Shown: positions 53,583-58,362 of the stretch, in pieces
Numbering within the stretch: the stretch's first letter is position 1
Layout of the letters: each line of letters starts with the position of its first letter
Source of the DNA: Vibrio sp. JC009
GTDB taxonomy: Bacteria; Pseudomonadota; Gammaproteobacteria; Enterobacterales; Vibrionaceae
DNA: 64,000 nt
Direction: 5' to 3'
Assembly: GCF_029016485.1 (NCBI RefSeq)
Contig: NZ_CP092107.1
Coordinates: 310,001 to 374,000 of the forward strand
Notes under the pieces: model-generated
The model's database searches: none
What the model saw: the letters and a program-made list of their open reading frames with translations, nothing else
Told to the model about the DNA's origin: nothing
Made by a program: the position numbers and the translations under genes

Positions 53583-54803
53583 ATGCCTCTACCACATCTT
53601 TACTATCTGGAGCGATACCGCAACAAAGGAACCAGAACCTACAGCAGTCACTCTTCCTATACCGAAGCATCGGTAAATTATCGCCCTGATTCTGATGAGC
53701 AGAAATTCGCATTGCCTTTATACAGAATTCCGCGAGACAGTGTGAATATTTACCTGGCAAATCCTCCTAAGGCGTTGCAGGGCAAATACCTGTCTGAAAA
53801 CCACGTTAACTTTTGTGTCCACCCTCAGCTTCTGGAAGACACTTTTTCTGAACCATACCTTCAGTCCTGTATTTCTGAAAATACAGCTGAGCGGATAGAC
53901 GTTATCCCCAGCTCTTCGACGCGGACTCTTTTTGTACCTGACAGAGCAGCTCATCATGCGGTAAAGGTTCACTTTCCCTTTAAAGTCTCACGTTATACGC
54001 GAAAAATGCGCGATGAGGTTGTTGAGCAGGCGATCAATGTTTCTCTGGAACTGGAGCAAAACATCGACAAAATGGGGGAAGATTTCTCCTTCCTGCGTGA
54101 AGTCATCGGCATCAGTTTTAAAGATCAGGCACCCGGTGAAGAGCGTGGTGAAAACTGGGGCTTTGTTGTCCGGGATATGACACCGTTCCCTGTAACAGAC
54201 GAGCCTCGCTCACTGGTTCCGGGCTTTGCTCTTTATGGCGAAGACTACTTCAATGCAGAAACGACTCCCCTGCTCTACGATCTTATAGGCACAGAAGATC
54301 CAAAACAGTTTGTTCTGGATAAAATTATGCTTCCCATTGTCCGGCACTGGGTGGACTGCTTCCGCCATTTCGGCTACCTGATAGAGCCTCACGGCCAGAA
54401 TGTTCTCATCGAAATTAACGAGCAGAACCAGGTTGAGCGTATTGTCCACAGAGATCTGAGCGTTGGAATTGATATGCGCCGCAGAAGGGATATGGGGCTT
54501 TCCAGTGAAGGATTAAACAACTACAACCGGATGGAGCAAAGCGCCTTCCACAGCATTGCCTATGACCGTTTTATGGGTAACCATTTCTTTACCCGTCTGG
54601 TTGAATGCTGTATTGCGCAGTATCCACACCTGACAAAAGAAGATTTTACCCAGCCGTGCCAGCAGGCGTTTGCCCAAAGGCTACCGGAATACAGAGACTA
54701 CTTCCCGCGCAATATCTGGTATTTCAGCGAAGAGCGGGACAAATACAATAAACCTCTTTATGAAGATACAGGCACCACGCCTGAGTGGCGCCCGGCCGAC
54801 TAA
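53583..54803 (+). CDS. Orphan IucA/IucC-like (NIS siderophore synthetase-like) protein
   Basis: This 406-residue protein shows the C-terminal signature of NIS synthetases: YLIEPHGQNVLIEIN (His270-Gly-Gln-Asn273) followed by RIVHRDLSVG (His289-Arg-Asp291), and earlier HAVKVHFPFKVSRYTRK (from Lys128), like the ATP-site strand KL-P--ITS-IR. NIS synthetases are about 600 residues; here the N-terminal part before that strand is only about 125 residues, and the usual HPxHK-type motif is not visible. It may be a reduced or divergent carboxylate-amine ligase. No other siderophore, export or receptor gene is nearby and no Fur box was recognised. Confidence 0.8.
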   Translation: MPLPHLYYLERYRNKGTRTYSSHSSYTEASVNYRPDSDEQKFALPLYRIPRDSVNIYLANPPKALQGKYLSENHVNFCVHPQLLEDTFSEPYLQSCISENTAERIDVIPSSSTRTLFVPDRAAHHAVKVHFPFKVSRYTRKMRDEVVEQAINVSLELEQNIDKMGEDFSFLREVIGISFKDQAPGEERGENWGFVVRDMTPFPVTDEPRSLVPGFALYGEDYFNAETTPLLYDLIGTEDPKQFVLDKIMLPIVRHWVDCFRHFGYLIEPHGQNVLIEINEQNQVERIVHRDLSVGIDMRRRRDMGLSSEGLNNYNRMEQSAFHSIAYDRFMGNHFFTRLVECCIAQYPHLTKEDFTQPCQQAFAQRLPEYRDYFPRNIWYFSEERDKYNKPLYEDTGTTPEWRPAD

Positions 54804-57279: not shown

Positions 57280-57593
57280 TTCCGTTTCCCCTTTTGCACG
57301 ATATTGGGAGTTTCCTGCCACGGCTTCTCTGCTGGTAAACATGAACAAAAGTACTGTGATTTCAGTGGTACGATTTGCCACTGAGTAATTGCGTTAACAC
57401 CGAAAGGGGCATAAATGAGTCAGTGACTTTGCTAAATTAGTAATTAATGAATGACTTCGAATATGGAAAAGTCGCTTAACTCAGTATCCAGTATTGATGG
57501 TGCATATCATTTTGGCTCACTATCACAGGAGTAGAACGGCACTCGTAGAGTGATAACTGCCAAACTAAGGTCATGACAAGCTTCATGAATCGT
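57280..57593. other. Intergenic stretch without a recognised gene
   Basis: Nothing coding is supported. The stretch separates the chemoreceptor from the operator array of the SatD-family gene and contains only scattered short repeats. Confidence 0.4.
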
Positions 57594-57670
57594 TTAGCCC
57601 TACACGGCTAATTCCTAATTATTAGCCAAAAATAGCTAAATTTGCATTATTAGCCATAAACGGCTAAATT
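57594..57670 (+). promoter_or_regulatory. Three 28-bp-spaced palindromic operators and promoter of the satD-like gene
   Basis: Three 18-bp palindromes of the form TTAGCC-N6-GGCTAA start at 57594, 57622 and 57650, exactly 28 bp apart; the middle one has AGCTAA in its right half. The third lies in the 17-bp spacer of a likely promoter, TTGCAT (57642-57647) and TAAATT (57665-57670), about 30 bp before the start codon. The arrangement suggests cooperative binding of a dimeric repressor. I do not know a regulator with this site. Confidence 0.8.
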
Positions 57671-57699
57671 GGTGTCTGCATGCAAGAAGGAGTTTTAAT

Positions 57700-58362
57700 G
57701 TGGAGCCTACCTCTAAACCTATCGCAGTGATCAGCGGCGATATTGTCAACTCAACCAAGCTAACATCTGATCAGTTTGAACAACTACTTAAACGAATCAA
57801 AGATATTCAGAGATGGATCACCGAAGGAAATTCATCAAATGCGCACAGTATTGAGCGTGGCGATGAATTTCAGACCGTGGTGCATGATATTGAAAGCGCT
57901 CTGAGGTACACCATAATTTATCGTATTGGCATTAAAGCGCTTGGCAAAGAGTTTGATAGTCGTATTAGCCTTGCTATTGCCTCTAATGCCGATTTGCGTG
58001 AGTCGGTCTCTGAATCGATGGGTGAAGCATTTGTTCTTTCTGGGCGTGGACTAAAAGCCTTGAAAAGCGACAGGCTGTTATTTAACTCTGACCGTTTCGA
58101 ACTCACTGAGCACTTTGACTTGCTCTTTAAGTACCTTGATAAACAACTAACGGAATTAACCTCTCGCCAATGTGAAGTTATGCTTCCGATGCTTCGAACC
58201 AATGAAGGTTTGTCTATTAGTAAATTAGCAGAAAAGCTCGATGTTGCTACTGCCACTGCCAGTAAGTCACTTAAAGCTTCAGGTTGGCCGCTAATCAGTG
58301 AGCTAAATTGGCGATTCATAAACCAATGGGTAGAAGCAAAAAAAAGTTCCCCCCTTCTATGA
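57700..58362 (+). CDS. SatD-family protein with C-terminal helix-turn-helix
   Basis: 220 residues from a GTG at 57700, preceded by AAGAAGGAG. The N-terminal part has IAVISGDIVNSTKL (about 7-20) and IERGDEFQTVVHD (about 50-62), the SatD family pattern, which recalls the metal-binding loops of nucleotide-cyclase folds (DIVGST and GDxF). The C-terminal part (about 145-195: LTSRQCEVMLPML, LSISKLAEKLDVATATASKSLKASG) looks like a winged helix-turn-helix. It could be an autoregulated DNA-binding protein that senses a nucleotide, acting on the operators upstream. This role is inference. The DUF3307 partner often found next to satD is absent. Confidence 0.82.
   Translation: MEPTSKPIAVISGDIVNSTKLTSDQFEQLLKRIKDIQRWITEGNSSNAHSIERGDEFQTVVHDIESALRYTIIYRIGIKALGKEFDSRISLAIASNADLRESVSESMGEAFVLSGRGLKALKSDRLLFNSDRFELTEHFDLLFKYLDKQLTELTSRQCEVMLPMLRTNEGLSISKLAEKLDVATATASKSLKASGWPLISELNWRFINQWVEAKKSSPLL

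Follow-up and report, generated by a model that had tools for sequence, protein, structure and literature searches.

Background

The SatD family of proteins (Pfam PF16264) is named after satD of Streptococcus mutans. Autorepressors of two-gene modules with several operators include toxin-antitoxin antitoxins. Panoptes consists of OptS (mCpol) and OptE, an S-2TM-beta effector, with the gene for a small palm-fold protein followed by that for a membrane protein (PMC12657218). In Streptococcus pyogenes, satD is reported as accessory yet essential in transposon screens (PMC11323703). A search of the open-licence literature on SatD, DUF3307, the sat operon, autorepressors joining a cyclase to a helix-turn-helix, and the operator motif found no description of the system or operator rule reported here. 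The locus concerned is a satD-like gene preceded by an array of three inverted repeats, within a 64,000 bp stretch of the Vibrio sp. JC009 genome (contig NZ_CP092107.1, positions 310,001 to 374,000, forward strand), referred to throughout as the window. It is best explained, with a probability of roughly 0.8, as the remnant of a self-controlling two-gene operon, made up of a satD-like regulator and a DUF3307 membrane protein, from which the partner gene has been deleted. The system is very probably a two-gene module that regulates itself, and its operator rule is unusually clean. The array, its period, its covariation with the recognition helix, the operon and the deletion are shown; the fold is predicted, and binding, repression, nucleotide sensing and the role of the partner are inferred.

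The operator array and its conserved period

Three dyads precede the satD-like gene, beginning at 57594, 57622 and 57650, with a period of exactly 28 bp:

57594..57611, no strand: operator dyad 1, TTAGCCCTACACGGCTAA, fits TTAGCC-N6-GGCTAA
57622..57639, no strand: operator dyad 2, TTAGCCAAAAATAGCTAA, one mismatch to TTAGCC-N6-GGCTAA
57650..57667, no strand: operator dyad 3, TTAGCCATAAACGGCTAA, fits TTAGCC-N6-GGCTAA; within the putative promoter spacer

An earlier note, made from the sequence of the window, had described three copies of TTAGCC-N6-GGCTAA at this period; the positions and the period were right, but the exact motif is present in only two of the three copies. The array is real, and chance is rejected on the shuffle test. 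Three similar dyads in one register, whatever their letters, occur at one place in the window and in none of 30 dinucleotide shuffles. For the two-dyad tandem pattern (up to 3 mismatches), this array is the sole place in the window's own genome (2 overlapping forward matches), and the reversed control has 3 forward matches across all 196 genus genomes. The single motif (up to 2 mismatches) is not rare, with 4 matches in the window where shuffling leads one to expect 2.76, and 216 forward matches in the window's whole genome (G000) against 157 for its reversed control. A repeat finder at default settings listed no repeats for the array region.

A total of 116 unique homologous proteins was reduced to 113 by dropping L089 and L101, which have incomplete frames, and L111, which scores 36 where the limit is 80. 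Judged by shared 12-mers, 87 of the 113 are non-redundant, and 74 of these have a half-site score of at least 3.5 and at least 4 half-sites. Self-similarity at lags of 12 to 69 was scored over 230 bp upstream of the 87 genes, with no motif assumed. The mean score is 24.9 at lag 28, 18.6 at lag 29 and 19.0 at lag 56, and about 16 at most others. Lag 28 is the best in 61 homologues and lag 29 in 12; in four control regions the two lags together are best in 2, 0, 1 and 4 of 86 to 87. Compared with dinucleotide shuffles, the period has p <0.01 in 74 of the 87 loci and p of 0.05 or less in 82.

The same period extends to distant relatives. Further loci, 14 in number, were taken from the remaining orders and classes of the phylum and from Segatella copri (Bacteroidota); nine of them have 28 or 29 as the best lag, one of the nine in a tie. 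With the annotated start, the best lags of the S. copri locus are 48 and 31; lag 28 is the best once the start is reset to the conserved one. This locus is a satD-DUF3307 pair on a plasmid (L188:2932-4345), with AATCAA/TTGATT half-sites at 28 bp. An apparent array insertion in one relative was a run of N and was dropped. The letters of the half-sites differ between clades, being TTTAGCC, GTTAC, TATACG, GCAAAC, GCAAG, GTCAAA or ATTCGC. In 62 of the 74 loci the orientation of the half-sites alternates strictly; the number of half-sites found is even in 46 of these and odd in 16. One mismatch was allowed in the count, and a missed half-site can make an even array look odd. An array with a 28 or 29 bp period is therefore a family-wide architecture before satD-like genes, which the window shares.

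The SatD-like protein

57700..58362, forward strand: satD-like gene, an open reading frame with a GTG start, 220 amino acids
Residues 1-152 of the product: predicted cyclase/GGDEF-like palm fold
Residues 155-216 of the product: helix-turn-helix domain
58240..58281, forward strand: recognition-helix window, codons 181-194, DVATATASKSLKAS; predicted helix at 184-194

Against the Pfam SatD model the window protein scores 24.6 bits, under the 29-bit gathering cut-off, with its best stretch at residues 8-76; relative L027 scores 27.5 bits. The model reaches E 0.001 or better in 7 of 23 diverse members and matches 3 of 274 class genomes, the window's own not being among them. It is too narrow for the family, and own alignments were therefore used for searches. 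For structure prediction, alignment A2 covered 27 of 33 loci from the genome_contigs scan described below, the window and L113, and alignment A3 the partner genes of 22 of the 33. For the N-terminal domain the prediction is a fold of the cyclase/GGDEF/Cas10-palm type, in agreement with the cyclase-like motifs that had been read from the sequence alone; the fold families are those of chains ranked by Foldseek only. D14 and D55 are invariant in 55 of 55 members and are candidates for the two metal-binding aspartates of a class III cyclase. At position 112, Asn is not among the six commonest residues, which account for 53 of the 55 members; equivalence to a transition-state residue is read from the motif. 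Matches of the protein in PADLOC are confined to the helix-turn-helix region, and none was found for the one DUF3307 partner scanned, so a known defence family was set aside.

The array is very probably read by the SatD-like protein

Half-site profiles of the 74 loci were compared with 14-residue windows along the protein (52 windows). The highest correlation is at residues 181-194, with a raw value of 0.82 and a partial value, on the N-terminal domain, of 0.43. At residues 180-193 the partial correlation is 0.394, which 0 of 2000 permutations reach. Among pairs of proteins with less than 40% identity in the N-terminal domain, mean half-site similarity is 0.71 for helices with at least 50% agreement (46 pairs, 28 loci) and 0.42 for helices with less than 30% (1727 pairs); it exceeds 0.6 in 78% of the helix-similar distant pairs against 6% of the dissimilar ones. 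Between 21 clusters the correlation of helix and half-site is 0.60, and 0 of 5000 permutations are as high. That the operator letters follow the recognition helix is hard to explain unless the SatD-like protein reads its own array, which it very probably does on this comparative evidence. Binding of the protein to its own array, as in the self-regulation suggested in the earlier note, predicts just such a dependence.

Putative promoter and leader

57641..57646, forward strand: putative -35-like element TTTGCA, a weak match in the conserved linker
57665..57670, forward strand: putative -10-like element TAAATT, 18 bp beyond TTTGCA
57407..57593, no strand: leader of about 190 bp, common to some relatives (L061, L062, L028, L189 and L027)

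In the 30 loci of the TTAGCC clade, TTTG is found in the linker before the last dyad in 25, TAAATT at the end of the last dyad in 25, and both in 21. The proposal that the third copy sits in a promoter spacer finds support in this conservation but none in a strict sigma-70 scan, considered below. A match to a TTGAC-type promoter was identified in 9 of the 74 loci, and in all nine the -35 is inside the array or no more than 12 bp to its left; on average the array takes up 43% of the region. The position of the array over the predicted promoter, and of the nine TTGAC elements within or near it, makes it likely that the SatD-like protein represses its own operon.

Leader, array, satD and, in relatives, the DUF3307 gene together make up a block of some 1.7 kb, with the leader on its left; the window has 57393-58326 of it. 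Against five distinct relatives, the left edge of similarity falls at 57393-57415 of the window, and the flanks beyond are unmatched. For L030, L033 and L034, similarity to the window is mainly from about 57593 on. The leader has no Rfam match up to E 1 and its fold is not unusual (z-score -0.94), and the idea of a structured RNA was dropped.

The DUF3307 partner and its deletion

The earlier note had seen a self-contained module. This does not hold, as the relatives are two-gene operons and the copy in the window has lost its partner. In the fetched flanks of the 33 genome_contigs loci, the only gene family common to all encodes a membrane protein, in a frame usually overlapping the end of satD; the three that were scanned are all DUF3307 by Pfam, at 83 to 116 bits. 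With an own profile, DUF3307-gene sequence was found downstream of satD on the same strand in 110 of the 113 loci. The frame begins between -59 and +92 nt from the end of satD in 107 of these and at +111 in L158; L034 and L086 have only a short later frame, and the partner may be broken there too. DUF3307 sequence is lacking in three loci: the window, L075 and L133, the last being at a contig end. In L075, a relative with 47% identity, two dyads precede the gene and a DUF3307 gene is absent within 1.4 kb. All 14 of the far loci have the partner, two of them only part of it.

58318..58345, forward strand: deletion junction, with some 25 nt left of the DUF3307 gene; the resulting aberrant satD end is QWVEAKKSSPLL

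The window satD matches its relatives to 58326 (residue 209). Beyond this point, alignment with L061 jumps forward by 94 bp, at an AAACCAA common to both, and resumes within the DUF3307 gene; homology ends at about 58345. By this comparison, a deletion has joined satD to some 25 nt of the DUF3307 gene, the remainder of which is gone. The window's own genome has no DUF3307 match anywhere else.

Residues G173, I176, G177, E180, R181, K203 and R207 are invariant in 56 of 56 non-redundant partners and are in the C-terminal part. In L110 and L112, whose SatD is above the Pfam cut-off, the downstream gene matches only part of the partner profile; the match includes the C-terminal part, which may be the partner core. 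A hydrolase-like enzyme, suggested by conserved His and Gln in membrane helices, is not claimed, the invariant residues being C-terminal. The DUF3307 model has no PDB match at E 0.001 (best E 0.61). The N-terminal part of the partner in L027 (6644-7402) has a match (E 1.7e-18) to PHROG 2470, a family of phage membrane proteins in the moron and host-takeover category. A jumbo phage is reported to carry a DUF3307 gene (PMC8504454).

Distribution, gain and loss

The genome_contigs scan identified 33 loci with 73-95% identity, in Vibrio, Rheinheimera, Shewanella, Psychromonas, Marinomonas, Colwellia and others. Each of the 33 has one or more TTAGCC-type dyads around position -50 relative to the start; further dyads at -78 and -106 are present in most, and an extra pair near -130 and -160 in several. 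The motif thus accompanies the satD homologues throughout these loci, and its lack in front of close homologues, which would have spoken against the earlier note, did not occur; more distant homologues change the letters and mostly keep the period. Of 197 genomes of the family, 31 have a match; for the order the count is 63 of 394 (7 of them weak, at E 2.8e-5 or worse), and for the phylum 30 of 398 (9 weak, at 1e-4 or worse), the window's own genome being included each time. Relatives are also present on 6 plasmid-collection records, including those of Vibrio lentus, Salinivibrio, Pseudoalteromonas and Segatella copri, one of the six being typed as conjugative. The viral_contigs have one relative (L113, 34%). 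None of 50,697 phage records has a match at E 1e-5, and a phage origin was rejected, though part of the partner matches a phage family.

In the genus, a tandem array with at most one mismatch is found in 20 of 196 genomes; 7 more match with 3 mismatches, which is chance-like. A DUF3307 gene is present in 14 of the 20, the window accounts for one more, and five are left. Two of these five have a truncated satD, with similarity over 26 and 66 residues, and two have only the array and about 27 bp of common left flank. The fifth (G110) has a two-dyad array without a common flank, and satD is absent within 4 kb of it. The stretches of up to 8 kb fetched around the five gave no further satD. Conversely, 19 genus genomes are DUF3307-positive and five of them are without a near-exact array of the TTAGCC type; the operators are different in four (L076, L096, L099 and L098), and the fifth (G281) has a partial satD frame only. 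It seems that the satD-DUF3307 module has often been gained and lost.

Some individual sites may be added. L183, L185, L186 and L187 are array remnants in other genus genomes, with satD truncated or not found. At L184:3981-4026, two TTAGCC-type dyads at 28 bp have no satD nearby and adjoin genes that, from their translations, are helicase-like and resolvase-like. Elsewhere in the window, the gene at 53583-54803 has IucA/IucC-family similarity and a weak FhuF match.

Weighing the explanations

In the proposed operon, the SatD-like protein would combine a palm domain of the cyclase/GGDEF/Cas10 fold, with its two invariant aspartates, and a predicted C-terminal helix-turn-helix. Its recognition helix would bind its own tandem array of inverted half-sites, for which the comparative evidence is strong, and binding, over and just upstream of the putative promoter, would repress the operon. 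Repression might then be released when the palm domain takes up a ligand, probably a nucleotide, so that the membrane partner is made, this being the weakest step. In the window, regulator and operators remain and, as the comparison shows, the output gene has been removed by deletion. It is a rather unlikely extension of this scheme that SatD-like proteins chain along the DNA, each on an alternately inverted half-site with dyad axes 14 bp apart, and that a nucleotide bound in the cyclase-like domain opens or closes the chain. Were it true, this would be a nucleotide-gated, DNA-coating repressor of a membrane effector, with lattice spacing fixed and letters free, in a class of stress or immune module not found described.

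Several observations weigh against the remnant-operon reading. Five of the 87 loci have no significant period, and in 5 of the 14 far loci neither 28 nor 29 is the best lag. Half-sites also correlate with the N-terminal domain (r = 0.80), so that covariation is partly shared ancestry; the nearest competitor outside the helix-turn-helix, the window at residues 69-82, has a raw value of 0.81 and a partial value of 0.34. In 10 of the 46 distant pairs with similar recognition helices, including L099 and L165, half-site similarity is 0.6 or less. The strict sigma-70 scan of the window did not list TTTGCA-N18-TAAATT, whose elements are weak, several of the nine TTGAC promoters come from one clade, and in L167 TTGACA is the half-site word itself. 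Foldseek gives distant matches: of 909, a single one has an E value at or below 0.001, and its TM-score on the query is 0.32. R116, equivalent to a transition-state residue on a motif reading, is Arg in only 31 of 55 members, and cyclase-type catalysis by the protein is doubtful. Finally, the ratio of nonsynonymous to synonymous substitution (dN/dS) of the window satD is 0.09-0.16 against five distinct relatives, which is no relaxed constraint. The orphan satD may therefore still work alone; by the same ratio, either the partner was lost recently or the orphan has been kept.

This last point bears on the rival with the best standing, in which the window copy is a dying pseudo-operon without remaining function. 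The deleted partner and altered C-terminus fit it, as do the other genus members that retain only a truncated satD or the array. Nevertheless, satD matches its relatives to residue 209 under the constraint just given and all three operators are kept, and this rival, although possible, is the less probable outcome. The SatD-like protein might instead activate, or the array might serve maintenance or transfer of the gene rather than its expression. The outer copies are upstream of the -35-like element, a position that activators also use, and the plasmid relatives, one of them conjugative, would suit transfer; but the last dyad is within the putative promoter spacer, where an operator is usually repressive, and the window's replicon is 1.88 Mb. 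Either role is considered quite improbable.

It could also be that the array is bound by an unrelated host regulator or nucleoid protein, of which satD is merely the target. The Pfam helix-turn-helix matches of the window protein (near residues 160-192) are weak and under their cut-offs, and G110 has an array without satD or common flank. On the other hand, the letters differ from clade to clade in step with the recognition helix of SatD itself and the period stays; 14 of the 20 near-exact-array genomes have DUF3307, one is the window, two have truncated satD and two the array with left flank; and Rheinheimera proteins with 89% identity have the same kind of array. An unrelated regulator is thus very improbable. 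Least credible of all is that the repeats are RNA hairpins of an attenuator or riboswitch. Each dyad could form a 6 bp stem, but copies 1 and 2 are upstream of the predicted -35 and copy 3 is in the spacer, so that none would be transcribed from that promoter; the strict alternation of half-sites and the lack of an Rfam match up to E 1 also speak against hairpins. The remnant of a self-controlling operon is therefore preferred.

Comparison with known systems

An uncharacterised pair, SatD-like and DUF3307, here gains a testable role, as an autoregulator of cyclase-like fold with a defined operator before a membrane protein. That the period is kept and the letters change, in many genera and in two phyla, amounts to a natural experiment on how proteins recognise DNA. 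The essentiality of S. pyogenes satD, reported alongside its accessory status, is a puzzle that a regulator-plus-partner reading could address, the architecture being known here from the genes of other loci.

The window protein resembles the SatD family in its N-terminal similarity (24.6 bits, residues 8-76), and L110 and L112, the two relatives that exceed the Pfam cut-off, are likewise followed by a partner-like gene. It differs from the family as described in falling under that cut-off, and a C-terminal helix-turn-helix with an operator array is in no description found. With class III cyclases, GGDEF and Cas10 palm proteins it shares the predicted fold and, in D14 and D55, an invariant aspartate pair that may correspond to theirs; unlike them, it has the variable Arg116 (31 of 55 members) and a fused helix-turn-helix. 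Panoptes is likewise a two-gene operon of a small palm-fold protein and then a membrane protein, and the OptS structure 9mnr is among the Foldseek matches of the SatD-like model, at rank 8. The SatD-like protein differs from OptS in having a helix-turn-helix and an operator array, and its partner is DUF3307 where OptE is an S-2TM-beta effector. As in toxin-antitoxin modules, the product of the first gene would read an array over the operon promoter. Unlike the antitoxins, this regulator has a predicted palm fold, and the period of its operators is kept in two phyla while their letters change.
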